This document shows positions 1,607 through 43,605 of a stretch of DNA of 64,000 nt, in pieces. The DNA lies in contig WIXG01000220.1 of assembly GCA_009869945.1 (NCBI GenBank), positions 1-64,000 of the forward strand, written 5' to 3'. Under the pieces are notes generated by a model that was not told the origin of the DNA, searched no databases, and saw only the letters and a list, made by a program, of their open reading frames with translations. The translations under genes were made by a program, and so were the position numbers. The first letter of the stretch is position 1. Every line of letters starts with the position of its first letter. This DNA comes from Mesaphorura yosii (Eukaryota > Arthropoda > Collembola > Poduromorpha > Tullbergiidae).

Positions 1607-4600
1607 TTATGGGAGGTAGCCAAGTGACGCCTGAAAGTCAGTGGAGCTGTTTGATTTGGATGCCAGGTTGTTGATACTCTTATCATAGTTTGAGTTCATG
1701 TTCAGGACGTCGTGAGTGGAACTGCTGGCTTTCGAATTATTTCCTGGACGACGATTCACATGTAGATCTTTGAACATCGCTGCTATCTCCGCTGTTTTCT
1801 TCATCGATAACACCTTGTCGGTCTCCAGGCCTTTCCCACAATGTGCCCTCGTATCAGTTTCTCCCGTAACACTGCCGTTGCCTTTGGCTGGAACACAGGT
1901 CTTCCCCCTGAAATGATTTCTGTCCTGATCCTGTTTTGCATCCGAGTATTGAAATGAGTAACTAGAGCATGGCGCTGCGGTTGCATCTTCACCAGTTACT
2001 AGGCGAACTTTACTTCCTAGTGACGACTGGTGAGCCTTGGAGCGGCTGTTGCACAAAATTCCTTTTGGGGTCTGAAATGAAAAGAAAGCATTATAAGTTG
2101 TAGCTTCCAAGGGTTCAATATTCGATCAGGACTCAGGAATGATCTACCGGAGAAGAATGGAAATACGGCGATGGGTGACTGCAACTTTTGCTATCAGAGT
2201 TGCACTGTGAACTTGATTGGGGAGAGTTTAAACTGAGTTGTTGCGTTCCCTTCTTAATTTCTATTCCAGATACGCCTTCCCTCTGCTGTTGATGGACTGT
2301 TGCACAGATCGTCTTGGCACCGACGTTAATCTGTGGGTGTTGGCGTGGATGCGGCGATCCAGAACCGGCCGACCTCGAGCCGGGTGAATTGTTTCCATTG
2401 CTGTTGCTGCAGTAGGACAGCCTTCGGGCAGGATGATAGGATAGAATTTCGACTGATTTGGTTGAGACTGTCTTGAGGTTCGACGAGGATGATGTGGTGG
2501 TTGTTGGTTCAAGAGGATTGAATGCTTCCAAATCATAAGAATTCGTGTCAGTGTCAGAGGTCTCGGTGTCCAAGTTGATATTATATATTTTAAGTCCATT
2601 AGACTTAACTCTCTGAAGAGAGCAGTAACATTTTTCGCTCCCGGCGCAGCTTTCTGTATCATACCCACACATCTTTGTGGTGATTGATCGGCTAGATTGT
2701 CCACAAACTGATGCACCATTGGAATGATCATGTTGGGCCGAACCACATTTTTCGGCTGAAGAGCAAATACTCGACTTGACTCCATTTTCAGCAACGACTT
2801 TAGAACCCGACGCCGACTCGCTCTCGTCAGACTTGCTACTCCGCTCAGGTTTCCCGGTATAAGCCGGCGATGATGCTGGAATTCGAACGATCTTGACGTT
2901 TTGTTTGGAGGGCAGTGAGCAGTAACATTTCTCTGAACAATTTTCACAAGCACATCCACTACAAAAGGACATAATCGAGGCATCTTCGATCTTCGCACGA
3001 CTGCTCCCAGGTTTCGGCGGAACTGCCGGGCCACTTTTCTTCAGAATAATTTTGCGAGGAAGCTTGGAAGGCTGCTTTGCAGCCACTGATACTTTAGAGA
3101 TACCGGCAACTCCAACTCCGGCTTTAGCTGACGCCGCTGATGCTGCAGCTTGAGTGGAGGATGAAGTCATCATTATCCCAGACGTAATTTTTGAGAATGA
3201 TTTTAAGAAGGCGCCAAGAAATTGCGAATGTTCTTCGCTTTCTAGACCGGGCAAGTTTGCACTGGTCCCAGGCTTACTTGGTGCTGCTGGCTTTTTTCGT
3301 CTTCCATTGCCATGATTTTTTCCGTTCGCCCGTATGGGCAATTGATGCTTCTTCATAGCGTCCTTGCTCTTCTGGTATAGCTGGTCTTGTGTGAGCGTTA
3401 GTGCAATTTTTAGCAGCAATTGTTGATAGGACGGTTTCAAATCGTTGAAACTGTATGATAAAGAAACATGTGCGTTTTATTTCACATTTAATTTTCAGTA
3501 CGATTACTGTATTTGCTGTTTGTCTCACCTCATTCCACCCGGGTTAATGATTCGATCAAGCACCTGATCGATTGACTCGCTTAGCTGAAAATCCGTCGCG
3601 GATGACGATGAAGATAACTCCTCTTCTGGTGTAGAGATTTTCACACGTTTCGTGTTCTTGGTGTACTGCGGTCGATACCCACCTACACCATGGCCGCAGT
3701 TCCGAGCCTTGTTAATGGAAACTCTTCTCTGGGGGATTTTGAGAAGTACAGAATCCTCTGAATTGTACCGCTTCAAGTTACTTTTGCTTATCCGATCCGA
3801 CCCATGTCTCTTCTTGTTGTTTCGTCGAGGCGGTCTCACTGGTATGAGAAGCGATTCTGAGTCCGAACAAACTCCATCGGGTGAAGAAACACAGTCCTGG
3901 CAAGCGAATCGGCTTTGTCCACTTGAGCCTGCGATTCCGCAACTAGTATTGCTGCAGCAGGTCCGTAGCAGAGCGGCCGGTCCACTTCCACTTGGGGACA
4001 TCTGACAGTGTGCGTTGGAAGAGAGGGGAGGTGAGCAAGAAGGTGTCGAGAATGCCGACGAAGGATTTTGCCCATTCGCGTGGTTAGTGGCCGGCGAATT
4101 TCTGGTCAGGGTTCCGTAGCCGCTTTCGCCTTCTCTTTTGCCAATAGCATGCGGATTTGCGCAATTGCTCTTCATTTTATCGACCAGCGACTGGTAAAGG
4201 TTGGCTGCTACTACGATCGCGTCTTCTGCACACCGGCACACGAAGGCGTGACAATCCAGCGTAAATGTCGCTTCTCTCATGACGCACGCGAACAAAGGTG
4301 GGTTTCTGAAAGGTTTGCCCGCACCGTGCCCTCCAGCCGCCTCACACTTGCTTCTGTAAATGCGGGCAAACTCCTCACTCATCTGACCAAACAAGCGTCC
4401 TTTGTCTTGTCCTTCCGGGTCGGAAATTAGAGGCATGAATGCGCATTCAGTTGAGTGTGGATCGCCTCTGGCAACAAATTTGATGGCTGCCCAAACCGCA
4501 ATTGTTGCAAACGGATTCACAAGACGAAGTTTTGGACATTCAAACCTCAGTCCGTCCTTCGTAATTGCCAGCTGCCCATTGAGAATGTTTTTTCCGTTCA

Positions 4601-5726
4601 AGTAGTTGGTGTATAGTGAGCAGAGGGGAGCCTGCAGGTCCTCCAATGCAGTTGTATTTCCTTCCACTGGCACGCAACCTAAGTACTCAACGGGGAAGCG
4701 GAGGTCGCATCCATGAACCAAATTTGGGTTGCTGAATCTCTCGTTCTCAGTCGGACATGACGACGATGGCGGCCCGCGAGGGACTTGACCGCTGTAGTCG
4801 CCGTTTTTCCACACAATGTCGGCGCTACTCGAACTACAGGGAGCGCTGCTTGTTGCAACACCGCTTCGGTTGGGTAAACCCACACTTTTGTCCGCCATCG
4901 CCTTCTCGCCCATGTTGTCACAGAGTCTCATGAACGCATTTTGCACTCGCCGGTCGTCAAATGTCAATATCTCGTTGTCGTTAGCATGCTCGTTCTCCTC
5001 GCACGTGATTCGGACACTTGACACGTTACGCCCTGATCGACTTTGATTTGTTGGCTTGCCACGCGGTTGCTTGAGAAGATGCGCCGGCACCTGATTGAAC
5101 CTTGACAGGTTACTCAGCGAATCAGTAACAATTGACGAAAAGTTTTTCTCCTCTGGGATTTTCTGATAGTCATCATCGTCATCGGAAGTATCAGCACATA
5201 ATCTCAACTGTTTTGATCTCTCCGGAGCCGGAATATTGCTTTGACATTGACCCTTTAGGCGGATATCTTTGAAATATTTCTCGCTCTCGCGACTCGAATG
5301 TCTCCTTACTAAACCCGCTCCAGGAGCAGCGTGATCCCCAGCAACTGGTCGCTGTCTCGGGTTTGGGTCTTCAATTTTAACGCAAAACGGCTCGAGCAAA
5401 TGAGGCTTGAAAGAGTTGAGTTTTGTCTGTCGCCCGAAGAGACTGTCGATTCTCCTTTTGTAAATCGCACTTCGTTCACTTATGGAGTGCTGGCTCGTCA
5501 GCGAGAAGGAACTACTGCAATTGCTTTGGGTGCTTCGAGTGGTACCAGTGTCAGAGTTGCTGCTTGTGCTCTGTGGTGGGTCCCTGCGAAAGTTTAAAGC
5601 ATCGTCAACGGATGACAACCCCGACGTTCCCTCTTCTGCTTCAGCTAACGCCGCCAAGTCTTCCTCTACAACGGTTGAAATGAATCGACGACCGTTATCG
5701 CTGGTTTGTTGCAAAATTATCACCAT
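1607..5726 (-). CDS. Large PTB-domain scaffold-like protein, three exons (PTB protein 1)
   Basis: Exons 5726-3529, 3450-2148 and 2071-1607 join in frame into 1321 residues, with introns of 78 and 76 bp. A PTB/PID fold spans about residues 340-520: it opens with RFPVEYLGCVPV, carries a longer than usual loop, and ends with PPLFACVMREATFTLDCHAF and a terminal helix. PTB domains usually bind NPxY-type tails or phospholipids, so a cytoplasmic adaptor role is expected. The rest is Ser/Asn/Cys-rich and probably disordered. There is a helical block at about 734-766 beginning FNDLKPSYQQLLLKIALTL, and the motif SEKCYCSL occurs twice (about 905-912 and 1004-1011). No membrane span is seen. The start is uncertain: the first ATG (MVIILQQ) follows a strong acceptor directly, so it may be the start or an internal methionine. 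It resembles PTB protein 2 in this window. I could not name the orthologue. Confidence 0.85.
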
Positions 5727-5750
5727 CTGGAAAACAGCGATAAAAAAAGT
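5727..5750 (-). promoter_or_regulatory. Strong splice acceptor at the start of PTB protein 1
   Basis: Read on the minus strand, a T-rich run ending GTTTTCCAG abuts the ATG at 5726 with no bases between. This is a 5'UTR intron end, a trans-splice acceptor, or evidence of an upstream coding exon that I did not find. Confidence 0.6.
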
Positions 5751-8700
5751 TAGCAAACATTGACGGAAAGACGCCAATTCCAAGGAGCGTCCGAACTCTG
5801 GTGCAACTATGCGAATGAGCTATTCTTACACACGAGTTTCAGAGCGTGGAGGTGAGTGAGTCACATGGGAAAAGACTCAAATTCGTGATCGAGAAATGGA
5901 TGAATGTCGTTCCTGTTACAGCGTTGTTTGTCTTGTGCCGAATAAATGCTTACTGAATCAGAATTGCTTTCTTTGCGGTACTTACATTTGTTGCTAATGT
6001 TCCCATGCAATTCCTGCTAACTGTTAGTTTAGATTCATGTTCCGACATTGAGACCCATCCTGCATTACTGCAGGAGGCGAGTTTTGGGGACAATTTTGCA
6101 AGAACTTAATAAGGGACAGACAACCCCAAATTAAAATGTACATCAAAACTGCGAATGACGAATGGCAATCGCATGCAAGGCAGGAGCACAATTAAGTAAG
6201 AAATCAGATGGCATTTGTTTTGTGGCGTGTATTGTTGGGACGATTGCATTCTATGGTTGGACTGTAATGCAATTTATCGTATTATCATGGCGCATGTGGC
6301 CTAGGTACAATGCAAGGGGAATAATGAAATGGAATGAATGACTGAACATGACAGATGTCTATTGTGGAAATCTGTCTTTCAGAGAATGCAAAATAAATAA
6401 TAAAATTTTCGGTTGGATCAGCTCGCACTATGACTCTTTTCAGCCTCTTCTGTTTTGATTGGCTTTTCTGGTGAAAAGTAACGGGAAACTTTCTTTCATC
6501 GCTCTGCTCGTCATCAGTGGCAAGAAAATAGGCAGAATATTTGCCCATGTTCACGAAATGCTACAAGCTGCATAGAACGAGGAAATAATAGAGCTCACAC
6601 TGCCCAGAATCCCACCGAAGTATCAGCCAACAGATTTTGCGATAATTATAATTCAATCAGGAGCTCAGTGAATGGGAAATGTGAGCCTGCGAATGAATTC
6701 AGACGAAATTGAGAACACTTTGCATTGTTTACAGCCCTCATGTGATATTTTCTCAATCTGCCTGCTTTGAATCTAATTTTTTCTACATTTGCTTCTTAAT
6801 CACTCTAACACAGACGATAATTATATCAGGACTGCAGCATTGGCGTTGCGACGGAGCCTGAATCGTCGAGGAAAAGACACACATGTTGCAAAAATCAGTT
6901 CAGCATGAAGAAACTCGTGCCACATGAAAATAATGCACATGAATATCACGAAGTCATCCTCAAAGCTCCAATTTGTCCTAGACCACAGTGTAATACGAGC
7001 TCGTATTTGGTTGGTCCACGGAGAACAAGATACTTACTATTTAGTGTAAAGCAAGTCTGTTAAAATGAACTTCATGCTCAAATTAGCGTAGGCATGATGT
7101 AAATTTCGGGATGCTCACGTCGAAGATGACAGCCAGAACTCTTTTAAGATGGCTTTGCAAGCATTTACATGACCATTTCTCATTCGGATTAAAACATGAA
7201 AATCCAACTCCGCACTGCTTCATGAATTGACTTGTGATGAGATTATTCAATCATCGTTTTGATTGATTGATATAATCTAAATCTCATGCCTGATCAGAAC
7301 ATATGGCAAGTTACAGGACTTTCTCATTCATCCAGCGATACACACCTCATCTTCCTTTAAGGAAGAGTTATTTGCCTCTGATTAGTTCTACTTTCAGTAA
7401 ATCGTAAGCGTTTGTCCCGTAACTGTACTTACAACTTTAATTCCAATTTTGAATGATCGCAATGCGTGGTGTGGACGGGTTAACGAGTAATTAATTTTCA
7501 TCTGTGCAGGCAGAACAAAGCTCGCCGTGCTTAATGACCGTTAAATTGACGGTTCTTCAACTCTGAGGCGCATGTACAATTTAGACCAAGACGGTGCAAT
7601 TCTTTCACCGCCCGATCCCGAGCATGAGCGCAACCAGTCAAGCAGAAAAGAGTACAGTAAAGTATAACTCGTAAACCAAGTCAATCATGAATCATGGTCC
7701 CGCACATTTCGTACTCCACACGTGTAAGTGAATGAATGAACACACTCGTCGTCGAGCAAAGGAGTCGGTCATAGAAGTAGACTCCGCGTCCGCGCATTTC
7801 CTTGCTGAAATTCCGCCCTATGCGAAAGAAGTCGTCAAATCTCAGACTAGAGAGTCCGACATGATTCACGGGTTTTGTGCATGTGTGCAATTAAGTTGGC
7901 ACAGTCGGTTGAATAAATGCAAAGAATAAAAATAAACTCTGGCGTTCTGACTCGTGCACTTCTCTGAGTTAGAATTGAAGAGCAGGTGCGAGTCCTAAAT
8001 GAATTACTTTAGGATTTTGGTTCCATTCTGTCGTTCCTATTGTTCTCGCGTCTTTCACGTGGACATAAATCTTCAAGTCCCAATGAATGTTTTGCAGAGT
8101 CAACCACCTAGTTGGACTCGATGCTCAATCTAACGTTGCAAATCACACCAACTTGAGGTTTAAGCACTCCCCAGAAATTTCAATGTGTTTCTCTCAGGAC
8201 AAATCAATCCTATGTGATTCGGGAGACTTAAAGTCTAAGATTATCGTACGCATGATGGCAAGATGCACCTGTATGGGAACATCGTTACTTCGTGACAAAG
8301 TTCCCAACCCGTTTCTTAAGTTCTTCTCGAGTGTGGTACGAACGCATGAATGCTGGTTGCATAAGAAATGCGTTTTACTTCCCCAAAATAATTAGTAGCG
8401 GTATTAGCGTTAGGTGATGACGACGCAAACGTGATTTGGATTCTGTTCCTTTTCGTAGTCTGAAACCCCCAAACCCAGGAGCCAAGAGTCTGAGAATATT
8501 GACACCTCGCTTTTCATTGTCAGACTAACAGAAGAGAGCTAAAATTAATTCGAGTTCTCAGTTGAAATATTTGGGGAAAGAAACTGTGAAGAGGAACTCG
8601 TTGGCATTGTTATTGCTCACAGCACTCTGAAGAGTACTGTAAATAGTTATTATAACAATCAAGAAGGTCTCAGAATCTCCGCAACGAACGCAGTTGAAGA

Positions 8701-11700
8701 AACCCCCAAAAGTTGCTTTGTCAAGCGTGAACTGAAATGTAATTTATTTAATGAGAAATTATGTAATGGAAGTTGCATTGTGATGAAGCAGGAAGGAAAT
8801 GCAGAAATGTGATACACAGTAAGAAGGCACAATGCCGGATGCATGTGGCTACTAGTATAACTAATTCTGGAACAATCACCCCAAAGTGGAGGGTTACGTT
8901 TGCAATTTCTCAATTTATTATATTAATATTACCTTTAATTGTGAACAATCGCAGTAGCTTCAAAAAGCTTCACAGAATTGTTTACCGTTGAGGTCAAAAG
9001 CATTACGCACTTTGGACTACGCATTGCACTTTTAATTTATATGGTTTGCAGATTTTCGTTGAAGGCAAAGATTTGCAATAAAGATTACTAGTCCACTAGT
9101 GGAAGATAAGCACTCATATCTCCTGTTATTTGTTACCCCCTTCAATCGTTAATCTAATACTATGTACCGTAACAGAATTTTGCTGCTAATTTGAGAGCAG
9201 CAACATTAATTCCGCTTGATGTATTCCGTTCCATACGCAAGGTGCAATGCGCTCAGCGCATCCAAAATCCAACGATGCCAGGCAGTATCGATTACTCTAC
9301 AATCACACGGTGTAAATAAAAAATTAAGCCAAATTGTAAAATGTTGATGCTAACTAGAGTCTGTGGATTTATAGTGTCAAGGAATGATAGCAGACGCAGT
9401 TGAAGCTTATCATGATTTTCACGCTTGTCTTAGCTTTTGACTTCTAAATTGCTGAACTGCATTTGAGCGCAGAAAAATTACTCGAACCAGAATCATAAAC
9501 CTTGCTATGAGATTAAGCGCCTGACATTTCTGACTGTTAGGTGCTTTACGAATTAGCAAGGTAAAAGCTATATGGCCTATAAATAAAGATGGGACTCTGT
9601 TTAAGCAAGTTCAAGGACTTTCGTTTTGACATTTCGAGTTGCAATAATATTGAGCGGCTGATGGTGTGAATTTTGTTCATGACCATGATCTTACATGATT
9701 CGTATAGATCCGAAGTTTCACTTGGTCGACTAGATCGACTTGGAAATGTAAAAGGTTAAATTCTTATCTACGCATAAAACGGAGTCGTTTTGCGACATTT
9801 AATTGCAAACACGCAGAGATCTTATCAAGTGGGTAATCTCTAAGTACGATATGAACACAAAATAAATGTGCACCTACAGTTTGACCGATTACAGGATGTC
9901 GTCAACTCAGATAGATATTTGTTACTACGTACAATACAATGCAGGCAATTTGGTTTTGAACTTACCTTTTCAAGAAGAGACTGTGGCTGGTGAAGTTACG
10001 TATTTTTGATTTTGAGGACAGCTCGTGCAAACACCATTATGGAAACAAAGGTTTGATGCATTTCTGCATATTCTGCATGTCGGTATTGCCGAAAGTCTTC
10101 TGTTTTGTTAAGCGGTCAAACACCTGTCCATCCCAAGTCGAATTAAATGTAAGAATTTTAAATGCTTTATGCTTCTGCAGGCCACAGGAACGGCGCGGTC
10201 ACCGCAAAAGTAATCGAACCAAGAATGAAATGCTTATCAGGGTCACTTTGATTTTGTCGTTCTGACCGGAGTGACAAACTCAGTTTGTTATTTTACACAA
10301 TGTCAAAAGTAAAATGGCGGGGATCTGCCAAGTTTCTCACAAGTTGGTCTCGGAGCGTTGTTACTAGCCGACGTTGCATCATGTGGCTTCGGCTCCCAAT
10401 CTTGATCACTAGCGCTTGAAATTTGATATTTACATGCAAAGCCAAATTATTTAGTGTAATCACAATACTTGAATTTGAGTAAAATTGAACTAGAAGAAGC
10501 CGACAAAACCTCAAAAATTGTCAAGGGACTATTCTTCAGTTTTTGAGACACGGACGATAATGAGAAATTAGAACTTTGGAAATGAATCGCAGAGGCAGAA
10601 CGTTTAACCAGAGTCGGAAACAGCGTCAGTGCGCACTGACCACAAACTGACAAATTGCAACTCAAACAAGAACGAATGGCCTGCGCTCAAATTAAGAATA
10701 AAAACGTACGCAACCTTAACGAGAGACAGTTAGCTATTGTAACAAGAGCACGCTCTTGCTAATTCGATTATGACAAAAAGAAAAGCACCTGTCTGCGAGT
10801 GAGAATGAGAATCTTATTTTCGTAAACTCGAAACGAATTTATCGAGAAGGAGCTCGTCAGGCATCTCTTAAGCCAAGCATCCACTGATCTTATTCCTCCT
10901 TAACGTAATCCTTCTTGTCTTCTCGGCGCAGTGCTCACAAAGTGAATCTTCTTTCACTGCCATTTACCTTCCTAAATGCAGGTGAAGATTCATTGAAATG
11001 ATTAGGTTCGAAGAATATCATTGGCATTGAATACCTCTGCATCTCAGATCACGAGTTCTCGCTAATACTATTTCGTGCGGTGTACGCTGATCACAACTTA
11101 GTTTGAAGTGCAACGGTTTACTAAATGCAAGCTTTGATATTTTGTTACTGAGGTTAACTTTAGGCTTTGTAATTGTGCAAAGGACAACGGGAGTAGGCGG
11201 AATGAGTTTGTAAAGATGCACAATTTGAAGATTACGATCAAATGCTTCGTATTGTTTCACTGCAACGGAGTAAACAGCAAAATGACTCTGAGACAATTGC
11301 CATGTTATTCCACTAGGATTTTAATTGAATAGATTTCTGACGATTTGGCTTTTACTCTCAATTCAGCATACTACACGGTAAATGCGTAGGAAGCGGAACC
11401 TGTTATCAACAGACGTTTTACAGTAGAACGGAAGAGGTACTATGAATACTACTAGAGCTAGAACCCGGTCGACCAAGCTAGTTTTCGACAGTCATATTAG
11501 CTGTGGTCCTGTGGCTTGATTTGACATAGCACAATCCCCTGATAAGAATGCCCTGATCAACTCAGCTCAGTCCTCAAGAGGAAAGGCGAACAACAAACAT
11601 CAAACACACTTTTGCTCGGTCGAGTAACTTGCAATAGGAATTCGACCCAAATCTCTGAGGTGTGATATTTTATCACTTTCTTCGAATGCCCCATTGATTT

Positions 11701-12582: not shown

Positions 12583-12623
12583 ACTAGCTTTCCTCGCTGT
12601 CTCGGACAGCGAGGAAAGCTAGT
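12583..12623. repeat. Perfect inverted repeat, 19-bp arms with a 3-base loop
   Basis: ACTAGCTTTCCTCGCTGTC, then TCG, then its exact reverse complement. The arms match at all 19 positions and pairing stops sharply outside them. No flanking pairing or mature-miRNA sequence that I know is present, and the loop is too short for a normal pre-miRNA. It could be a regulatory palindrome or cruciform, or the footprint of a mobile element. Confidence 0.85.
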
Positions 12624-13479: not shown

Positions 13480-14236
13480 ATGGCAAATCATCAAATGGAT
13501 TCGGCAATTGCTTCGACTGCCACAGCAGCTTCCAATGGAGGTGTCGAAGAGGCAAAGGACGGTGCCGAAATACCTTCGACATTAAATAAAACCGTCTGTG
13601 AAATTTGCCATCAAAAGCCGGATCGATACAAATGTCCGGATTGCCTTATGAAATAGTAAGTAATCACAAGTTCGTTGAATTGGGGAGTGGCGTCTGGCTG
13701 ATTTGATTATACTTTCACAATCAATTCAGTAACGATATCTTTTTACTTCCTGTTATAGTTGTGCACTGCAGTGCTTCAAAAATCACAAGAGGAAAGACCA
13801 TGATGTATGCGATTCAAAAAGGAAAGAACGAAAGGCGACAGATGAAGGGTCTGCAGTATCGTCAACAGGAAAGCCGGAGAAAATTTTCGCGTCTGACTAC
13901 TGTCTGCCATCTGGATTATTCGAAGGGCTAACTTTACAGGGAAGTAAGTCTGATGACGAAACACTAAAGGAGCTAAGAAACGCTTACAGCATAAAATGTA
14001 ATGGTTATCTTTTTTCATATTTAGAGACTTATAGAAGAATGACAAAACTTTTGCGTAACAAACCACATGTGCGAGATATGATTCGGATGCTGGATGAATG
14101 CGTGGATCCCCGTACACAAATTCCCATTTGTATGCAGAATGAAGATTTTGCAAAGTACGCGCGTTTCATGATGTGCTACATTGCAAATGGAGAATTTCCG
14201 GACTCTGACTCCAGCAGTGACGAGTCCACCGTTTAA
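13480..14236 (+). CDS. ZNHIT3: ZNHIT3-like HIT zinc-finger protein, three exons
   Basis: Exons 13480-13655, 13759-13943 and 14025-14236 encode 190 residues (human ZNHIT3 is 155); the extra length is mainly a Ser/Ala-rich N-terminus. The HIT finger is C40-x2-C43-x8-C52-x2-C55-x4-C60-x3-C64, then H68/H73 and C76. After it comes the family's C-terminal region, with LLRNKPHVRDMIRMLD matching the human LLLNPHLRQLMVNLD block, and an acidic Ser/Asp tail. ZNHIT3 partners NUFIP1 in box C/D snoRNP assembly with HSP90/R2TP in the nucleus. The second intron (13944-14024) could be read through without a stop, but it has a perfect GTAAGT donor and a T-rich acceptor, and splicing it restores the human spacing. 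The gene converges on a possible minus-strand gene downstream. Confidence 0.9.
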
Positions 14237-14500
14237 GCAGTTGCTACATGTTGTTATGACAGTAGCATTCTTATTAGTACCTAAATTCTTATTATGGCTA
14301 AGATTATAAATCCATGGGATGCAAAAATTATTGAACACACACAATATGTTCCCTTCCGTGCGCTTCGGACCGACCCTCGTTTCTGACTAATTTTTTTATA
14401 TTATAAGAAATCATTCATTTTCTACGTATCATATTTTATATTACGTTTTGTACTTAAGTGGTCTTTGGTACAAAGGAAAATGTACAACTAAAACGTAGGA

Positions 14501-22413: not shown

Positions 22414-25119
22414 ATGCCTTTGATGCGCAGACACCGGGGTGGAGGCCACGGGATGAATGGTGGCGGCAGAATGAAGGGCCACCACAGCGACGACGAGGAG
22501 TCAACTCCGATCTGCCGCTGTCGCGTGTTGTATTTGGGCTCCGCCGTCCCACATATCACGAAAGACGGACTTCAGGGAATTCAGGAGCCGCTGAAGGAGC
22601 TGTATCCAGACACGGGACTATCCTCACTGAAAGGTATTGACTCATGGCTGAGTGTCTGGTCCAACGGCCTTCTCCTGGAAAACGTAGACGAAAAGAATAC
22701 GAAAATCACACGCTTCTTTCCGATTGAGTCGCTGCACTATTGTGCGGCAGTTCGCAACGTGATTGTCCCGTCCAACGGCACAAGTTGTAATAGTAGTCTG
22801 GTTAATGGAGCTTCTTCTTCCGAGAAAGTGCAAAAGTTTCTCCCTCTCGACTCACCATTTGCTCAACTTCCGAACCTCAACCATCCGCCGTTGTTTGCGT
22901 GCATTCTCAGAAGAACGACGGGAATTAAAGTGCTCGAATGTCACGCATTCATTTGCAAGAGGGAAATAGCCGCAAACGCACTCGTGCGATGCTGCTTCCA
23001 CGCATACGCAGATTCGACTTATGCCAAACAGCTGGAGAGTGGCGGCACTCTGACCACGTCCATCGCGAACGGCGAGCGAACAGGAACTCTGCTCAGCAAC
23101 GGTTTCTCTTCCAACAACGGAACCATCTTCAAGGACAACGACCAGAGACCCATTCAGCGATCAGTCACTCCATTGAACTCCATCGAGAAGGTGGCCGGCT
23201 GGCAAGCGCTGAGTCAGAACGGTGAGTCCGACATCATCGTAGTTGGGACTGCGGGTCCCGATGAGGACTTTCCTGATGGCCCAATGACCTCTTCGACACC
23301 AAGAGACAAGCTCTACGAATACAAGGCAGAGTTTCCAGACGAGGATGAAATCTATGAAGGAGACGAGAATCATAAAATCTGGGGAGGGAACAATTCGACT
23401 CTGGGACACAATGGCACTTCTTCCGAACTCGTGTACTTGGAACCTGATGGCACTCTGAAATCAGTAAAATCGCACAACTCTCGATTATCCAGACCACGTC
23501 AGTTTGTGTCGCCTCCTCCTCCTCCACCTCCGCCGCCTCCACAACAGTTTTCATTGCTCAAGTCGGCTGAGGAGGATGAGTCCAGCAAGAAGAAGATGAA
23601 GAAGAAGATGAAGAAGGAAATGAAGCAAGGAAATGGCAAAAGCAACGGGCAACTTCAACCGACGTATTTGGTGAGACCCGCTTCCATGATGAATCTGAGT
23701 ACGAGCGCTCCGCTGACTCTGCTCCCCCAGAATGGTCGCAACGGAGGAGGAAGCATGATCAACGGTCCAGTCTCGCGTCGACCAACCAGCGCAATGTCCA
23801 CACTCACTCGCCCTGGCCATCCACAACAGCCGCAACTGATTGCCATGCCTCAACAGCCGCCCAACGGCTACCACATGATCATGCCGCCACCACAACCCAT
23901 CTACGGTCACTACGCAATCGCGCATCCGCACCAGCAGTTTGTGAAGGGAGTGAAGAAGAAGGGGAAGCAACCGACCATTCTGACTGCAGTTCCCATTCTG
24001 GCCCCGACCCCGCACATGCCGCCGCATATGATTCCATATCAGCAACAACTGCACGGCCCGAGCTCCATGATGAACCACACTGCTCCGCCAACATTTCACA
24101 GGGACGAGGTACGGGGCGGTTTGCTAAAAGGTCACCCGCAGCAGAAACACGAGATGCTCATGATCCAGCCTCCGTCGCCAGCACAGTACGCAACAATTGA
24201 GCGTGGTTATCATTATCACTCGAAGCCTCCTCCTCATTTGATGATCAACGGAGACTCAACCACACTTCTGTCCAACAAGAGCAGGTCAAGGAGTCAAGTT
24301 CTGAATCCTGGCCTGAAGAGTCGACAGCAACAATACAGGGAGGTTCCTGGGATGCATCATCCCGCGTCAGGAATGTACGGGAAGGAGTATATCGTTGATG
24401 GCCTTAATAACAATCAGAACAACATGAAAAGTCAGCACCACGCAATGCAGAGCCATTCGCCATTCAATAATGGATACGGGAACAACAACGGGCACGACTC
24501 CCGGAATCGGCATCGAGACAACTCGCAATTCAGCACGGGTAATAATCACAATGGTAGCCATAATAACAATACGGATTCAAACTCCAGCTCAAGAAACGGC
24601 GGCGGTCGCGGAGACACGCAGGACAACTCGCCGTACAACACGGGCCTGTACAGGAAAAAGGGCCAGGCCAACAGTGGCGGCAGTGGCAGCAACAACAACA
24701 ACACGGACTCTGGGAGCTCAACCCGGAACAAGGACAACGGCGGGGATGGTTCGCCGTACAACACGGGGATCTACCGGAAGAAGGGCCACTTGAATGAACG
24801 AGCTTTCTCGTACTCGATTCGTCAGGAGCACCGCTCGCGGTCGTACGGGTCACTAACGAACCTGCAATATGCCAATTCTAATGAGACTGGAGGCGACTTG
24901 CTGCTTGGCGGCGGTAGGTCGTCCGGCTCGCCGCCACACACGACGGAGGGAATCAAGAAGGAGCGGGAGATCATTCAGATGGTGAGAGATTTGGACTTAT
25001 CCGGAGATCAGATCGAGAGATCGCAGGTGCCGCCTGACCTTTACCCTCCGCGCAAGCAGCTGACGAACGGGTACCGACAGAACGGCCATCACCACGGACC
25101 CCGGATCACGCATCGATGA
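22414..25119 (+). CDS. PTB-domain protein with Pro/Asn-rich tail, single exon (PTB protein 2)
   Basis: An uninterrupted frame from the first ATG after a strong acceptor encodes 901 residues. A PTB fold occupies about residues 33-205: CRVLYLGSAVPHITKDG, then GIDSWLSVWSNGLLLENVDE, then RFFPIESLHYCAAVR, a Ser-rich loop of about 40 residues, and PPLFACILRRTTGIKVLECH with a C-terminal helix. The core looks strongly constrained. The rest is low-complexity: a run of about 11 prolines near residue 368, a Lys/Met-rich stretch near 391-406, Gln/His/Pro-rich segments, and a tandem duplication at about 717-792 containing SPYNTG(L/I)YRKKG twice. The C-terminus has REIIQMVRDLDLSGDQIE. An adaptor or scaffold role is inferred. 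The exon is GC-richer than its flanks. It shares the PPLFAC/CHAF signature with PTB protein 1. Orthologue not named. Confidence 0.88.
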   Translation: MPLMRRHRGGGHGMNGGGRMKGHHSDDEESTPICRCRVLYLGSAVPHITKDGLQGIQEPLKELYPDTGLSSLKGIDSWLSVWSNGLLLENVDEKNTKITRFFPIESLHYCAAVRNVIVPSNGTSCNSSLVNGASSSEKVQKFLPLDSPFAQLPNLNHPPLFACILRRTTGIKVLECHAFICKREIAANALVRCCFHAYADSTYAKQLESGGTLTTSIANGERTGTLLSNGFSSNNGTIFKDNDQRPIQRSVTPLNSIEKVAGWQALSQNGESDIIVVGTAGPDEDFPDGPMTSSTPRDKLYEYKAEFPDEDEIYEGDENHKIWGGNNSTLGHNGTSSELVYLEPDGTLKSVKSHNSRLSRPRQFVSPPPPPPPPPPQQFSLLKSAEEDESSKKKMKKKMKKEMKQGNGKSNGQLQPTYLVRPASMMNLSTSAPLTLLPQNGRNGGGSMINGPVSRRPTSAMSTLTRPGHPQQPQLIAMPQQPPNGYHMIMPPPQPIYGHYAIAHPHQQFVKGVKKKGKQPTILTAVPILAPTPHMPPHMIPYQQQLHGPSSMMNHTAPPTFHRDEVRGGLLKGHPQQKHEMLMIQPPSPAQYATIERGYHYHSKPPPHLMINGDSTTLLSNKSRSRSQVLNPGLKSRQQQYREVPGMHHPASGMYGKEYIVDGLNNNQNNMKSQHHAMQSHSPFNNGYGNNNGHDSRNRHRDNSQFSTGNNHNGSHNNNTDSNSSSRNGGGRGDTQDNSPYNTGLYRKKGQANSGGSGSNNNNTDSGSSTRNKDNGGDGSPYNTGIYRKKGHLNERAFSYSIRQEHRSRSYGSLTNLQYANSNETGGDLLLGGGRSSGSPPHTTEGIKKEREIIQMVRDLDLSGDQIERSQVPPDLYPPRKQLTNGYRQNGHHHGPRITHR
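24562..24792 (+). repeat. Tandem duplication inside PTB protein 2
   Basis: Two diverged units of about 35-39 codons follow each other. Each has an Asn-rich NTDS start, a SSSRN/SSTRN segment, a Gly/Asp-rich linker and the core SPYNTG(L/I)YRKKG(Q/H). The core is best conserved, suggesting it is the functional part, perhaps a short linear motif with a Tyr and basic residues. Confidence 0.8.
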
Positions 25120-33953: not shown

Positions 33954-34462
33954 TTAAAAATCCGTCGCGTAGTCCGAAGAGTCTGATGTTGACTTCCCTA
34001 AGCCGGATCCCGACTCCACTCGCCACAAATCTGAAGAATCACCTCCAGAGCCTGATTCTGATGAGTCACTGCGTTCTTTTGGCTCCGATTCTTCCGCATC
34101 AGTTGTATCTTTGTTTTTCTTTAATTCTTGTTGCAGAAGCTCTGTCAGTTGTAGCTTCATCTATTCCAGCTGAAAGTAATTAGAATTGGCGAATATTTAC
34201 TTGGTGGATCTCAGGCGATCACAGCGTAAATACGTAATTCTTACGTGCTCCAACATCCAGTCTTTGTTCTGGGAGAAAATTTTCCGTCGCCAATATTCTG
34301 CTTCAAAAATGCTGTCATGAGAGTTAAGATACAGTTAATAGGTATGTATAGTCTCAGAATATCAACAAATTGATAGACAAGACTAACCTTCTTCTCTGCC
34401 ATTTTCCTTCCCCCTAATCCCCCAGCCGCCACAGTTCCACTAAGCCTTCGTTTTAGATTCAT
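33954..34462 (-). CDS. Small acidic-tailed protein gene, exon joins uncertain
   Basis: Three pieces are visible. 34462-34388 starts with ATG (MNLKRRLSGTVAAGG, ending MAEKK) and has a consensus GTTAGT donor. 34311-34245 reads SIFEAEYWRRKIFSQNKDWM and ends in a consensus GTAAGA donor. 34160-33954 reads MKLQLTELLQQELKKNK, then a Ser/Asp/Glu-rich tail to TGA. The second and third join in frame if the TAG just before 34160 is the acceptor, giving a continuous amphipathic, coiled-coil-like helix followed by an acidic tail. The first and second do not join in phase with the sites I can see, so the true first exon or acceptor differs from this. The third piece also has its own ATG. No family recognised; it looks like a small nuclear or adaptor protein. 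Confidence 0.45.
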
Positions 34463-35522
34463 GTCAGCTGCTAGTCTGCTAAAATCATGAGCTGATCAGT
34501 GAAATATACAATCAGGTTTCAAGTCGGAAGTGCAGATAACAATGATTGCCCTTTCTTCATGGTTGCCTCGGTACAATTCCAGAATTGCAAGATCTGATGA
34601 TCGGTGAAAAGATCTCAGCTTCAACTTTGTCCGATTGCAAAGGCCTCTGGATTTCTGTTTTAAGATTGTTTTCAAGACGTCGGACTAGAAATATAGACGT
34701 CAAAGACCACATCGAGTGAGTTTTGAATCTCTGGATAGCGAAACGTGGTAGTGCGAACTGGAACACACGAGAAATGGGAATACAAATTGAGCAAGCATGT
34801 GCTCTCAATCGTGAGCACAGAATTACTGCACATTCGTTCCAGAGTAAACATTCCCGGCATATTCCTATGAAGCGATCACAAAAAATAGTCCTGACATTGG
34901 CCGAAATAATGTGGTTTCATCCTACACTAAATTCATTTGTACTTTCATATTCGCGTAAAGTACATATCGATAGATTCTGTTCATGGCTGGACTGGACGGA
35001 AGCATGACCAAATGAGTACTAAATTCAATTATAGGGACTAAATTTGCGCCAACGGCTTAAGGAGTCAGCAATCATGAATTACTTAATCGCACCACGAGCC
35101 ATGCCAAGAATGCTGGGGACTTAATCTCTTTGTGGGTCATCGGGTCATGCCAAAATTTACACACATAACTCAGGGGTTGGAATTCGCAACACCTTGCCTG
35201 ACAACCCATGCCGTCGCAGCATTCAGCTTTACTGCACAAAGTGAAGATCGTGCCCGTGCCGTACTTAGACAATTTATGCTTCTTGAAACGCAGACACGGT
35301 CGTGCACGTTCATCATTATTATGAAAATCTGCTTCGTGATCTTCATATTGATGCTCAATTAATTGCCCTTCACCTCGACTTTCCAGTTTTCTCTCGTACA
35401 CCCCTTCTCGCTTCTCCTCCTTCATACAAACTTCGCGAAGTCATAGCCATCCCACAATTAATATACTATTTGTCTCTTCGCGAGTGATTGGGAGACAACT
35501 TAATATGAAGACTGCAGAGAGA

Positions 35523-36061: not shown

Positions 36062-38318
36062 CTGCAAAGCTAAAGAGAGAGTGGGCAATCGATATCAGTT
36101 TAATTTTAATTATACGGTTGTGGTCATGATACGTGTGATCTCTCTAATCGACTGCGTCATAAAAGATGAGAAGACGCATGTGTCCTGTCCTCCACACCCA
36201 CTTGCAATTCAAGCTACCCCTGCAAACATCGTTTTTGCTCAAAAAATCCCAAATTTCTCATGATGCCTTCATGTTAATAAGCCCATGCCGATCATAGTGA
36301 TTCGCGAGTTTCTCTTTTCCAATTAATTATAATCAAGCAGTATCAATATCAGAGCTCAATAAATAAATATAAATGCTCAATGATGAATCAAATTAATTCC
36401 GGTGGCGGAATATAGCTAATTAATTATCCTGAGCGTAAGTCCGCGAGGGCTGAAGTGACGGTTGTGCAATTCTGCAAATTATGAACCTGCAACTGAATCC
36501 GGCATGGTGTTACGAAAATTTGACGTTGTTTCTTATTAGATCTTCGTAACCCAAAGCAAAGGGATAAGGGCTGATCGAGTCCTCCGAATACTTGTGTTGC
36601 TCTGCATGTCACGAGGTTTATCGGTAACTCATTGTTGCTCTAGCCTGGATTTTCATTAAACTATCATCCAGATAGTCCAGAAGCAAATTGCTGCGTAGCC
36701 TGGTAAACAATCTGCATGGTTTCATCTTCTGAAATTTTTTGCAAAGATCCGCGAGTATGCAACTTGTTGTGCCGCATGCTGCTCGCTGTAAGAATATGGA
36801 GTCCAAAGACACTGCTTGCCTGGGTTGACATACTGTAGGTACCGTTACTTGAATCTTTGAGTCTCAGTCCCTTGTATTCTCGCTGACTGATGCAATCAAG
36901 TCAAGCAGGTTCATCTTTGCATTCAACTTAATGGTGTGTAAGACGTGTCTTCTTCTTCGTTGTTTATCTGCCGAATTAATCTCGTGGCCGGCATTCCCAT
37001 TCGTTGGGTCCATTACACCTTCTGTTCAGTAAAAGGTGCAGCATTTAATTCAGCCTTAATGTATGTAAATATATGAATTGACCGAGTCGTAAAATGCGCG
37101 AGCAGATTATTATAATGCGTCTATTCATCATCGCTGATCTTTAGTGCCGGCAATGTGAAATACATTAAGCTCTAGAACCTGCGATACCTGCGAAGTCACT
37201 CACTCACTCGGTGCTAGTGTATTGGTCCAACTGTTGCTAAATATTTCTCCTTTCTTGGCATGCAACTGCGTTTTAGCAAAAGAAAACGGAGCTAAGTTCT
37301 CGTTCAAAGTATTGATAATCCCTTCATGAAGTATTGCATAAAGTTCGTAACACCATCCACAATGGTATGAGTCTTGGGAAATTAAAAATTCCATCTTCAT
37401 CTCGAAGCCGTTCGCAAGGTGATTTGCAGTGCCTGAATTTATTTTGCACGCTGCGTTGAAATTCAATTTGTGGATATTGAATTAATATTTTTGGCAAATT
37501 TTACTTGTGCTTGCAAATGCTGTAATAAATTTGAAAACAAAGTGATGAGCCTCCTCTGTGCATTATTGCATCGCGATGGCGATGAAATGAAATGGCGAAC
37601 TTTAATAACGCTGAATGAATCGAGTTTTCGTGACCATACTCTTTACCCAGTTTACCTTGTCCTCAGCAAATGAGTTTGAGGCGAAGATGAACACGATCGA
37701 CGAGCGGATTGCAAAATGGCGAAACATGAATGCGTAACCTTTGCTTTTGTAATTCCTCTTGTAAGCAGAAATAAAACAATAAGGTTTTAAAATCTCTCCA
37801 CATGATGCTCGCGTACAATTTGTTACAGCGCAGTGACCAGCAGCGGCGGTTCGTTAGGAATCACATTGACAGTTCGATCACCTGTCGCACGTTGAAGATT
37901 CTCAGACGGAGACGGAACGGTGACAATTCAATACACAATTGGATATTGTTTCAGACATTTTCAGCCTGGCCACAGTCCACCACTCGGTGTCGTCTCGAGC
38001 GGCCACTTGCTGTCCGTCGGTCGTAAATTACGTAATTAATCATCGCGCCATCACGATCACTATTTATACAAACTGTGCTGTATGGTAATAAGTCCTCACG
38101 AATAAAATTAGTTAATCTCAATTGTGGTTTTATTATGTTGTGAGACTAGTCGGGAGGAGTTTGTGAATGAAGACGAATGCAGCCGTAATTGTAATGGAGA
38201 AGGGTTTAAAGAACCTTGAATTAAGTAACTATCACAATGAAGCTGTGGTAAGACGCAAGATGCGGGACTTGCAGTCTATGAGTAAATGCAAGCTTGTAAA
38301 TTAATTAGGGTAACCATT
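36062..38318. other. Intergenic region, nothing recognised
   Basis: Only short open frames occur, such as 36424-36612 and 36618-36812 on the minus strand. They look somewhat peptide-like, but I could not connect them to each other or to a neighbour with consistent splice phases. Confidence 0.4.
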
Positions 38319-38947
38319 TAAAGATCAGTGAAACAAACTACTTTGCCAGTGAAAAAACAAACGATTTCATCGGTCGACATTTCTTTTTATTTCACTAGTT
38401 AAACAAATGAAATTGTCAATAAACAGAGGGCCAGTGAATAAAACAAAAATATAAGTAATGAATCAGAAAATATCAGTGAAACTCGCGAGAACATAATGCG
38501 TTGAATTATTGACGGGCCAAAGTCTCTTAGCTCTTTCAAGCCGACCACGCTCTCTCTCTTCTGACCATGCGCAACAGTTAGCGCTTGTTGGAAATTAGCT
38601 CTTATTTTGGAAGCCGATATGCCAAGTATGTGCTTGCGATATTTGTTTTGGAAAAAGGAGCAAGTGGAAGTGGAAGCAGTCCAGTCAGCTAGGATGATGT
38701 TAATCTTGTAGAACTAACGTATGTTGTCCGATTCTTGATCAGACTCCAATTTTTTCAAAACCACATACTGATAATTCCACTTATTCCACTGTAGTTTTAT
38801 TTTATTGTACTGAGAGCAATGATCACTGATATTTTCATTTAAAATCACACTGGTGATTTAATTTATTCCGGGATCTCACTGATACCCGGGTCACTGGTAA
38901 ATTCATGAATTTTTCACTGAAGATTCATTTGTTTCACTGGTGCTTTA
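38319..38947. mobile_element. Non-autonomous inverted-repeat (MITE-like) element
   Basis: The two ends are inverted copies: TAAAGATCAGTGAAACAAA on the left and, as reverse complement, TAAAGCACCAGTGAAACAAA on the right. The motif CAGTGAA recurs several times inside the left third; its complement TTCACTG, or shorter CACTG forms, recurs in the right third. The middle, about 300 bp, has no open frame of note. Terminal plus subterminal repeats of this kind mark non-autonomous DNA transposons, perhaps hAT-like from the CAGTG ends. I could not fix a target-site duplication, so the exact borders are uncertain. Confidence 0.55.
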
Positions 38948-39616
38948 TATGTATATCTCATTAATTAGCTTTCAGATTATTCATGAAGGATGCACGAGAG
39001 TTTTGATCTACAAAACGTCGTAAGCGCAAAAGCAATAAAACTTTGAGCACGCCGTCCATACAACTTAACTCATTAAAATGTAAACAGCCTTCGGTCCCCT
39101 TTACTTTTGTTGTCTTTCGCAAGTTGCAAGAATTAGTTTAATTCGTCATTATGAGGCCAGAGTTGGAGGTCGGTCTCCCAGCCAAATCACATTTTGATGA
39201 GTGCGCGTGACGACGATTGAATGAATTCAATTCGATCTGGGAGCAAGAAGCGCCTTTTAGTTACTCGCACAAAATTATGTCAGTGTAAAAAGCGCTGATA
39301 TCAGGCGTCATTGAGAGCTGCTCATGCATGCTGCACTTCTGTCGTGTTGTTCCGTAACATTGAAATCCCTGCTCCTGAATTGTAAATGCATCATCTCATT
39401 TGCCATTTCCTCGCAGCTATTTCGAATCTGTATTTGTAGGCCACGTAAATTAAAAGCAAAACGACGCAGCTCCTTTCCGCGTCGAGGAGAAGGCGCGAGA
39501 AAAGAGTCCGAACATGAAAGACAAATTGCAGCGTGAAAAGATGTTGGTCGCAAACTGTATCAGATGGAATCAGATTCAGAGAATACAATAAAAGAATCAT
39601 AAATAATAAAATATAC

Positions 39617-39751
39617 ATGAAAACTTTTTGCCTTCCTCTCCTTTGTTGCGTCTTCTTTTCACTTCACGAGTTCACTTGCAACTCCAATTATGGCATGATA
39701 GCAGCGGCAGCGGCGGTGGTACAGAATTCACTGCGAGAAGGCATTTTATGA
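39617..39751 (+). CDS. Possible small secreted peptide (44 residues)
   Basis: An ATG-started frame reads MKTFCLPLLCCVFFSLHEFT, a good match to a signal peptide, followed by a short tail with a run of alanines. There is no paralogue in the window and no clear transcription signal. A hydrophobic start of this kind can occur by chance in T-rich DNA. Confidence 0.2.
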   Translation: MKTFCLPLLCCVFFSLHEFTCNSNYGMIAAAAAVVQNSLREGIL

Positions 39752-40002
39752 CATGAAGAGGACGAAGAAGAACTGCCTTTTCGCAGTTCATAAAAGAAGT
39801 TTGCCACAATAAATTAGAATGATTTATTTCAGAGAGTAAAATCTAAACTGAAGGCGTGCTCGCGATTTAACCTCCTTGCATTGGACCGGCCGGCAGCAGA
39901 CAGGACATTTAGTCTGTCAAGATCAAGCAACGATTAAGTGGTGGCTGATGAGTAGCTGAGCACACAAAGGAGCACACTTGAATAAAATGGGATTTTTTTA
40001 TT

Positions 40003-40885
40003 ACTCTTTTGCATTTATAAATTTGCATGTAAAGTTTACTAAATCACAGTCTAAAATTGAAGATTCAGAAACAATAATTTTGATGGTTAGCACTTGGCCA
40101 CTAAGCAGAGTGGAGTAGCAACAAAATTGAAGTAAACTATTCGATAATCACACGCCGAATTAATTCATTCAGTGTACAATGATTTCTCTAATTTACTCAT
40201 ATCCAATCATTGAAAGAAACAAAACGCGTGCGTAGATTGTTGTAGAAGACGTAAGTGAAGAAGTAAATGACCAGGAGTGAGACGCGTGAGGACAAGAAAG
40301 GAGACGGTGTAAGAATGCAGAACTTATGTGCTAACTGTGTATCTAAATATTAATAATACACGCATAAAAATAAACGAACAGGCACATTATAACAACACAG
40401 TCTAAATCAGTTTTTAATGTAGTCTGAAGGGTTTCATGAGAAGTCGAAGGAGGCTGGAAATAAAGCGTACGTGATTTAACTCTTTATCTAGCAAGTGCTC
40501 ATATTATTTTAGCCGCACACTTCAATTCTGAGCAATACGAAGAGTTTATGAGTAGCAAACTGGTAGCGTGAATGCGGTAAGTCTTTTTTGCTTATTCGCT
40601 AATGTGGGTCCAATTGCAAGAATGCACCTACCCTACGATCTATCCTATAACAAGCAACTATCAACTACAGCTAAGTACTCTAACCCTAAAGAAACTCGGA
40701 GGAATGACTCTGTTGCAAACAAAAATAAATCGCATCTAAACTTCTTATCACTTAATTTCAGGCAACTCAAGTTTAAGCAGTAATAAATTCAGCCAGGTAC
40801 AGCTGCGGACTTGGTACGCGAACATGTTAACACTTGCTAATTTCGGACAGTCTTCTAGTCGTAAAAATTTACATAAACGCATAAA
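40003..40885 (-). other. Probable long 3'UTR of the third PTB gene
   Basis: Downstream of the stop codon (minus strand) the DNA is AT-rich and closed in all frames. A minus-strand AATAAA lies at 40002-39997, which would give a 3'UTR of about 0.9 kb. Confidence 0.4.
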
Positions 40886-43605
40886 TCAAACCATTTGAAC
40901 CGTAGCCCAAGCGTTAAAGGTGACTTTTTTATTCCCTTTCTTTTTCCCACGCCCAGCTGCGCCAAAATTACCACGAGTCTCGCTGCCCGTCTGATTTGGC
41001 CAGACACCATTGAACTTCTGCATGAGACTCTCACGAATGTTCCGCTTGAACCGCTGCGAGATGGTGGCCCACATTCCGTGGTGGTGTCCAGCTGAATCTC
41101 GGAGCAGGATCTTAGCCGTCCCTTTGCTGGGGTTCAGGTGTGCCAGGGTTGACGTTCGCGACGAGGAGCTCCTCGATGAGGAGAGTCGCGTTTTGGGCAC
41201 TGCGTAGCACATTTTGCGCGAGATGGTGCCGTTGGCGTTGCAACCGTTGTGCGGCAGTTTGTTGACATCGGCGATTTCCACCCAAGACGAGAATGGCACC
41301 AGCGCATGTCTCTCGTTGCCACACGCGAGGTATTCGTTCGCACTCATGTTGGAGTTATTGGCACCGTTGATCGCCGTGTACTGTGAAAAAAAATTAATGG
41401 ATCTCTGATAGGGCGCGAACGTGGACGAGGTTCTGCCCATGACGTGGTACAAGTACGACTCTTTGGGATAAATGGGTCTCGGCGAGCTGACAGTCTCGGT
41501 CTTAAGTGGAACTAACACAACAGGCTTTGCTGAGGTTGTTGGTTTACTTTGGCGTACTTGTTGCATGATTGATGAACAACTCGCATCTCCGGTCTTTCTC
41601 AGTGTTCGTAATGGAGTTTTGAACGATTCCTGCTGTGACTCAACTTCATCAGAGTCAGAATCATCCTCTTCACCTTCAGACGCATTTGCATTGTTTTCGA
41701 TTCTCGATAATAATGACGACGATCCATCAAACCGCCTAATGCCTGCCTGCGCGAAACGCTGCTGCGGTTGATTAGGCGGAAAGATAATGGGCGAAGACGC
41801 AGATAAGGACTTCGAGGATGGTCTCATAGTGGAAGAAGAGGATGCCGATGAAATCGACGATGTCCAAGGGGCCGTCAGCTTCGTCAACTTGCTGTACGTG
41901 CTGCTAATCGTGTTGCTGTTACTCCCATAGTAATTGTGCAGCCGATTGTTGTTCTTCCCAACGGGCAGTCCGCCCTCATCGAACCTGAAGTCTGTGGATT
42001 TGGACTCACGAGAGCCGAAGAACAACGGCGACTTGGACTTGGACTCGTGCAGAATCTCCGTTGGTGCCACGTGTGCCGGCAGCGAAGAGTACGGAACCAG
42101 CTCTGACTCGACTGGGATCGGAGGCTGCTGAGCCGGATGCAGGGTGATGGGCACACTTTGTGGCGAAGGAGAAGGCACAATAGACAGCTTGTTAGAACCG
42201 ACACTTGACAGCTTAATGCTGCTTGCATTTTTAAACGCTTTCACTAACACTCTAAGTTCACGATACTTTTGGAAAAGTTGTTCGGACTCTGCTTTGGTAC
42301 GAAAAGCCGTCACGAGCGCAATCATTTTAGCGGAATGTCGCACAACCCACACGAGCACGTTTGGGTGAACAATGTCACAGTGGCAAAACACAACGTCCTC
42401 GAGGGGGTATGACTGAAATGACGAAAGGTTCGGCAGAATTTCCCAATACGGAGATGTCCGATGGTGATGCTGTTCATCTGACGAGGAATTATTGTTAGTA
42501 GTCGGCACTGACAAATTCGGTGGCGTGCAGAATTCGTCCGAGTCTGACCCGTTGCCAGAACTCGAGTTGTTGTCATCCAAGACCTGGATGTTTTGTGAAC
42601 TGGAAATGCTGGTGTTGTCAATCGAATTTCCGGACGACGCAGACGAAAGAGAAGCTAGATTTGAACTATTTCCACTTGCGCCACCGAGTCCGTTGTCCGC
42701 AGGTCTCAGAGGCTGCTTGCCGGACACATTCAAGTGGTTCATCAGGTCGGCCAAATCAAGCTCATTGTATGACGAGTCGTTGGCGGCTCCATTGTGGGCT
42801 GAATTTGACCCGTGGATCATGGAAACGGACCGAATTGAGTCACAATCCGATTCAAAACCCTCATCTTTCGGTTTGACACCAGGTGACGTGATTTTGAGGC
42901 CTCGTTCAGAACACTCCACGAAGTACCTGCACGATACAAAGAGGAGTGTTGTCAGAATGAAAGGTCGGGTTTATTTATTTACATGGCTTCTTCGTTTGAG
43001 CCGTTCAACACCTGCAAATTAATTGTGTGTTTACTGTTCCTCATCAAGAAGAATGATACAGTTCTCAACTGTTAACGCAACAATGACAAAATAGTCGCAA
43101 GCGTTAATCCTCAACTTCTTCCGTCACTATGGGCTTAATAAATCTTTCATGATAATTATCGTATCTGCAACACCGTAATGACAATAATAATGAGCCTCGA
43201 CATATTTCTGCGCGATATTAATGATGTCTGATGCACGCGTATTTGTCTTATTAAATCCTGCTTCTCGCAATCTCTGCCCTATCAAATTATGGGATAGCAT
43301 AAAGACGGCGCGGTAATGATATCGCGGCGTGTGTCGTGGCGTGCTCGTGGAAGGAAATAGTGCAATAAATAATACGTCACCGGTTCATTATAAATATTTT
43401 ATGACATTAATTTTACTCTGCTTTGCACTTACTTTGTGTTGTCATTGAATTTCAGCGTCTTCGTCGCTGGGTCAGTGAACGACGTCGTGTACCGTTGAAA
43501 AAGTGTCGCCACGAGACTTGTCAACACCTCCGTCTGTATGGCTCCGTCCAACTGAACCTTGCCCACCAAGTAACCTGTGAACGATGCCATCTTCTTTGAG
43601 TTCAT
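40886..43605 (-). CDS. PTB-like protein with a split PTB fold, two exons (PTB protein 3)
   Basis: Exons 43605-43433 and 42926-40886 join in phase across a 506-bp intron into 737 residues. The first half of a PTB-type fold is at about residues 8-75 (FTGYLVGKVQLDG, YFVECSERGLKITSPG). The second half is at about 231-290 (YPLEDVVFCHCDIVHP, VLVWVVRHSAKMIALVTAF and a final helix). Between them lie about 155 Ser/Asn/Asp-rich residues. The long C-terminal half is Ser-rich and ends KKGNKKVTFNAWATVQMV, where K-V-T-F fits the RVxF docking motif for protein phosphatase 1. The ATG follows an acceptor (ATTGCAG) directly, so the start may be here or in an unseen upstream exon. It is more distant from PTB proteins 1 and 2 than they are from each other. 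An adaptor role is inferred; orthologue not named. Confidence 0.8.

Follow-up and report, generated by a model that had tools for sequence, protein, structure and literature searches.

The first 64,000 bases of the 133,089-bp contig WIXG01000220.1 (C220) of the collembolan Mesaphorura yosii, referred to here as the window, hold three long genes within 42 kb, and the question raised by this locus is whether all three encode proteins with a PTB domain and whether they descend from a common local ancestor or lie together by coincidence. A preliminary description, made by reading the letters of the window, had proposed three PTB-type proteins and an old duplicated cluster of adaptor genes. Our analyses suggest that genes 1 and 2 are probably paralogous, divergent FAM43/PID_2-like PTB adaptors that arose by an old local duplication, and that gene 3 encodes a separate PTB-like adaptor.

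The genome (assembly GCA_009869945.1) comprises 93.0 Mb in 1127 contigs. Among the six-frame open reading frames (ORFs) of the window, three long coding regions were distinguished, with orientations -, + and - for genes 1, 2 and 3. GT/AG junctions were read from the sequence, and translation of the spliced frames gave 1321, 901 and 737 residues, exactly the lengths in the preliminary description. Judged from the DNA itself, introns and gene content mark the contig as being of animal origin, and scans of viral and prokaryotic contigs with protein 2 revealed no relatives, as expected for an animal gene. The features under study, including a fourth PTB-like gene located outside the window, are as follows (contig positions; the window is bases 1-64000):

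1607-5726, minus strand: coding sequence of gene 1, 1321 amino acids (aa), exons 3529-5726, 2148-3450 and 1607-2071; predicted PTB-type protein
4164-4733, minus strand: predicted PTB domain of protein 1 (residues 332-521), intronless; placed by the genome PTB profile and by blastp against protein 2
22414-25119, plus strand: coding sequence of gene 2, 901 aa, single coding exon; predicted PTB-type protein
22489-23040, plus strand: predicted PTB domain of protein 2 (residues 26-209); placed by the genome PTB profile, with a sub-threshold PID_2 match
40886-43605, minus strand: coding sequence of gene 3, 737 aa, two exons
43433-43605, minus strand: exon 1 of gene 3, which would be PTB strand 1 and helix 1; statistically unsupported
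40886-42926, minus strand: exon 2 of gene 3, the remainder of the 737-aa protein
42218-42496, minus strand: protein 3, C-terminal half of its PTB-like domain, covering strands 5-7 and the last helix; placed by profile and shuffles
91384-92918 (about 91.4-92.9 kb), minus strand: putative PTB-like gene 4, outside the window, about 48 kb beyond gene 3; supported by the genome PTB profile

A PTB profile built from the genome itself was used, so that the fold test need not rest on Pfam. The profile consists of nine PTB sequences located elsewhere in the genome and found with PF00640 and PF14719, several of them joined, trimmed or partial; among them we take rows to be of FAM43, JIP, Fe65, Shc and NOS1AP type. 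A joint profile of proteins 1 and 2 aligned with it at 96.4% probability (E 1.2e-9, 121 columns). In single hhalign comparisons, the scores of proteins 1, 2 and 3 and of gene 4 were 31.9, 33.4, 31.7 and 30.0, respectively, with none of 200 shuffles as good in each case; the alignment of protein 2 spans 124 columns. The six-frame ORFs of 70 aa or more on the entire contig number 445 (mean score 10.6, standard deviation 3.0); among them, proteins 2, 1 and 3 ranked first, second and third (37.5, 33.4 and 33.2), followed by exon 2 of gene 1 (25.1, over 31 columns) and exon 1 of gene 4 (22.0). Proteins 1-3 are the longest ORFs and this ranking is confounded by length, therefore the scan was repeated on 499 tiles of up to 160 aa. 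The top five tiles came from proteins 3, 1, 3, 2 and 2 (32.9, 31.6, 31.5, 27.1 and 26.9), the sixth and seventh from exon 2 of gene 1 (25.6 and 25.4), the next three from proteins 2 and 1, and the eleventh from the exon of gene 4 (22.0). When the three proteins were shuffled at full length, none of 100 shuffles reached the observed score for any of them; two other long ORFs behaved as chance would have it (32 and 69 of 100). At the level of the superfold, proteins 1 and 2 thus show profile similarity to PTB domains above chance, in line with the preliminary description; protein 3 reaches this level in the C-terminal half of its domain only.

Proteins 1 and 2 are also related to each other. With blastp they share 25% identity over 164 columns (E 1e-10, z 17, 0 of 1000 shuffles as good), and the similarity holds on both sides of an insertion: the part of the PTB domain before PPLFAC gives z 5.1 (3 of 2000 shuffles) and the part from PPLFAC onward z 12.6 (0 of 2000). 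The insertion is the extended loop that had been listed as a shared feature; it is present in both proteins, but its two sequences are dissimilar (245 of 2000 shuffles as good). Beyond the PTB domain, proteins 1, 2 and 3 are without mutual similarity in blastp at E up to 1. In searches of the genome, each of proteins 1 and 2 is the other's best non-self match (E 0.0027 and 0.0034), and for each a single further, weaker match lies on a different contig (E 0.55 and 0.18, respectively), with translations that lack a visible PTB pattern. The two genes lie about 17 kb apart in opposite orientation, and both PTB domains are intronless. In pairwise comparison, proteins 1 and 2 score z 17.4, and the FAM43-type row is the highest-scoring of the four canonical rows longer than 100 aa compared with proteins 1, 2 and 3 (z 6.7, 5.9 and 2.6). 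On the same scale, JIP-Fe65 reaches 15.0 and FAM43-JIP 10.8, pairs of types that we do not take for recent duplicates; the value of 17 for proteins 1 and 2 is therefore high, yet not out of proportion.

The motifs that had first drawn the two proteins together, YLG near the start, PPLFAC and (D/E)CHAF(V/I)C, are all present in both. As a special tie they carry less weight, for PPLFAC...CHAFIC is largely a general PTB signature. PPLFAC and CHAFxC alone were ruled out as proof of such a tie, because a looser form occurs in canonical PTB rows (PKLFCWIYRH...RCHAVLC in the FAM43-type row). Taken together, a duplicated pair is well supported by sequence comparison, and the simplest reading of genes 1 and 2 is an old local duplication, inverted or later rearranged.

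Several results weigh against the PTB assignment. No Pfam PTB model exceeds its cut-off for proteins 1-3, and PID_2 (PF14719) is the only one listed for them. On whole ORFs it gave E 0.15, 0.032 and 0.0096 for proteins 1, 2 and 3, and on cut-out pieces E 0.0044 (17.4 bits), 0.00033 (21.0 bits) and 0.00049 (20.5 bits; C-terminal piece of protein 3); the curated cut-off of 25.4 bits was reached by none. In the PID_2 search of the genome at E up to 10, proteins 1 and 2 were absent and protein 3 was one of two sub-threshold matches (E 0.082). PF00640 (PID) and PF08416 (PTB) gave no match on the cut-out pieces at E up to 10, nor at these loci genome-wide. The profile scan has its own exception: the ORF of exon 2 of gene 1 (2136-3476, minus strand) scored 25.1, yet none of 100 shuffles was as good. 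Scores near 25 are hence no proof of a PTB domain, and we take this one for chance, probably a false positive, otherwise unexplained. The structure models, computed without deep alignments (protein 2 with protein 1 as a second row, and exon 2 of protein 3 alone), are of low confidence, the AlphaFold mean pLDDT (predicted local distance difference test) being 39.2 and 43.6, respectively, and Foldseek found no match for either at E 0.001 or better. With the protein 3 model, GATOR1 and end-joining chains headed the Foldseek rows; PH, Ran-binding and PTB chains followed lower down, and all were non-significant. To these points are added the N-terminal half of the protein 3 domain, considered below, and the SH3-type proline motifs of protein 1 and the KVTF motif of protein 3, which are short, putative matches.

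The order of strands and helices in these models would fit a PTB domain. In the low-confidence model of protein 2, the order of strands (E) and helices (H) is E-H-E-E-E-E-H-H-E-E-H, and the best Foldseek match is the PTB domain of ARH (3so6; E 0.081, non-significant). A sequence search of solved structures with the cut-out pieces at E up to 10 returned one weak match for protein 2, again 3so6 (LDL receptor adaptor; E 0.41), none for the PTB piece of protein 1, and two F-box protein 11 matches for the C-terminal piece of protein 3 (E 2.8 and 3.3).

Compared with known systems, proteins 1-3 are nearest to FAM43/PID_2 by Pfam and by the canonical rows, from which they differ in their sub-threshold scores, in chains of 737-1321 aa and, for proteins 1 and 2, in the long insertion that precedes the PPLFAC strand. 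A gene that clearly passes the PID_2 cut-off, presumably FAM43, lies separately on contig C116. The Dab/Numb/ARH-type adaptors (PF00640) are suggested by the predicted strand and helix order of protein 2 and by its top, non-significant Foldseek match, but no PF00640 match was found for proteins 1-3 at E up to 10. The tensin/EPS8-type PTB (PF08416) has the same superfold as PTB domains, but the genome's two matches to PF08416 are located elsewhere, on contigs C170 and C85.

Protein 3 is the weaker case, and for it the alternative of another PH-superfold or a beta-grasp protein has to be weighed. This alternative draws on the N-terminal half of the domain, which is un-PTB-like (against the PTB profile, 116 of 200 shuffles did as well), has no PID_2 match, and carries a sub-threshold match to Ubiquitin_6, the Neuron navigator ubiquitin-like model (43433-43605; E 0.00024, 21.4 bits, cut-off 27); moreover, the Avo1 PH and RanBP3 Ran-binding domains are among the non-significant Foldseek rows of the low-confidence protein 3 model. 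It is opposed by the C-terminal half, for which 0 of 200 shuffles were as good, which provided the best of the 499 contig tiles and the sub-threshold PID_2 match in the genome search, and which is modeled as strand-strand-strand-helix with a block pLDDT of 65-73. We consider the alternative somewhat unlikely. The domain of protein 3 is split by an intron and holds a low-complexity insertion of about 140 aa before its C-terminal half; a genome search with protein 3 found only itself, and its pair scores are z 1.4 with protein 1, -0.2 with protein 2 and 1.9 with gene 4. From these data, protein 3 is probably a separate PTB-like (at least PH-superfold) adaptor.

The fourth gene bears on the question of a cluster. 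Against the PTB profile, 0 of 200 shuffles were as good as its N-terminal half and 2 of 200 as good as its C-terminal half; Pfam gives nothing for it at E up to 1, and in the genome it matches only itself. ORFs at contig positions 81152-82246 (minus strand) may, by eye alone, be its later exons. Four PTB-like genes lie on one 133-kb contig of 1127. A tree of 11 rows and 124 columns was computed from rows of this genome, two of the nine canonical rows (the Shc- and NOS1AP-type fragments) being left out. None of its eight inner branches was starred; the pair of proteins 1 and 2 received 89/86, also without a star, and the remainder was unresolved, with the rows of protein 3 and gene 4 on end branches over 3 and unsure in place. 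The AU (approximately unbiased) test rejected none of the groupings: p-AU was 0.283 for {1,2,3}, 0.399 for all four together, 0.399 for 3 with 4, and 0.29 for 1 and 2 with the FAM43-type row. Within {1,2,3}, only proteins 1 and 2 are more similar to each other than to other PTB genes.

How often such linkage arises by chance was estimated with a random-placement model (PTB genes on 93 Mb, 20000 simulations), for an assumed total of 15-60 genes, the true number being uncertain because Pfam misses divergent ones; the linkage test was chosen after the fact, which applies to all the values that follow. Three PTB genes fall within 42 kb with a chance of 0.0002 (15 genes), 0.002 (30) or 0.02 (60), and four within 89 kb in 0 of 20000 simulations for 15, 20 and 30 genes, with 0.0002 for 40 and 0.00155 for 60. 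These last values, together with the unrejected {1,2,3} and {1,2,3,4} clades, are what speaks for a single tandemly expanded ancestor of genes 1-3 and gene 4, i.e. an old adaptor cluster. Against it, neither 3 nor 4 clearly resembles 1 or 2 in sequence (z -0.3 to 1.6), the intron places differ (none in the domains of 1 and 2, and different split points in 3 and 4), and so do the highest-scoring canonical rows, FAM43-type for proteins 1, 2 and 3 and JIP-type for gene 4 (z 5.0); we regard a common ancestor of this kind as unlikely. The other explanation is a duplicated pair with unrelated PTB genes that happen to lie nearby. If genes 1 and 2 are taken as a single event, the chance of finding two lineages within 40 kb is 0.07 for 15 genes, 0.30 for 30 and 0.78 for 60, and a second contig of the genome, C85, also links three PTB genes (at 52595, 155356 and 198595, within 146 kb), which were detected by two different Pfam models and which we assume to be of NOS1AP, Fe65 and tensin type. 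With gene 4 included, three lineages within 89 kb are rarer (0.001 for 15 genes, 0.011 for 30, 0.082 for 60), which speaks against this explanation. We regard coincidental linkage as quite conceivable, if a little short of probable.

The old duplicated cluster of the preliminary description thus survives in part: genes 1 and 2 are paralogous, about 17 kb apart and in opposite orientation, and protein 3 is without sequence similarity to either. The Pfam part of the profile search stayed sub-threshold, with PID_2 only, and the genome-built profile matched proteins 1 and 2 and the C-terminal half of protein 3. An ancient cluster of all four genes is possible, and the duplicated pair is well supported. 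None of the papers listed in the literature searches deals with such a PTB gene cluster.

The neighbourhood is as it had been described, with unrelated genes in between and alternating orientations, and includes two genes recognized by Pfam:

13480-14236, plus strand: two-exon ZNHIT3-like gene between genes 1 and 2, with no relation to the PTB genes (zf-HIT, E 5.8e-9, over the cut-off)
2-882, plus strand: TANGO2 homologue at the left end of the contig (E 1.1e-23)

On the ZNHIT3-like gene the ZNHIT3_C model was not significant (E 0.17). Between genes 2 and 3 there may be a small gene (33957-34495, minus strand) whose C-terminus would be acidic and rich in serine; its two ORFs gave no Pfam match at E 0.01. 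The Pfam scan covered selected ORFs, and further genes may be present between genes 2 and 3.

The three proteins have been called largely disordered chains. Their composition is consistent with this, as far as residue counts alone can tell: P, E, S, K, Q, G, N, R and T make up 60, 63 and 60% of residues in proteins 1, 2 and 3, respectively. Protein 2 contains a run of ten prolines (residues 367-376), and in its low-complexity tail the stretch SPYNTG(L/I)YRKKG occurs twice (24600-24800, plus strand). In protein 3, KKVTF starts at residue 724, near the C-terminus; the C-terminal end (40886-40950, minus strand) reads KKVTFNAWATVQMV and includes KVTF. We assume that KKVTF resembles the PP1-docking RVxF motif.

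The peptide tails bound by PTB domains, in many cases of NPxY type and with or without phosphorylation, lie along strand 5, in a groove floored by this strand (PMC4985636), and ligand binding involves strand 5 and the C-terminal helix (PMC3938774). The domains described here would accordingly be expected to take up a tail peptide of NPxY or a related type in the groove that runs from strand 5 to the final helix. Partners would be recruited by the disordered chain through short motifs, of SH3 type in protein 1, the ten prolines in protein 2 and KVTF in protein 3. The ligand class, the partners and the adaptor role of proteins 1-3 are thus putative, and receptors shared by the three, as suggested in the preliminary description, would be speculation. 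It is very unlikely, in our view, that the locus is an ancient conserved block of at least four divergent PTB adaptor genes whose scaffolds would share receptor tails and engage different partners (SH3 domains, polyproline binders and PP1). The linkage of gene 3 to genes 1 and 2, we infer, reflects ancestry or coincidence, not function.

Proteins 1-3 and the product of gene 4 appear to be divergent representatives of a type of signalling adaptor that is already known. Should their linkage be conserved in other animals, the locus would be a case in which the expansion of PTB adaptors can be traced; otherwise it would be an ordinary one. Counts of PTB adaptors commonly rely on domain models, and because all four genes fall below the Pfam cut-offs, the PTB repertoires of invertebrates may be undercounted.

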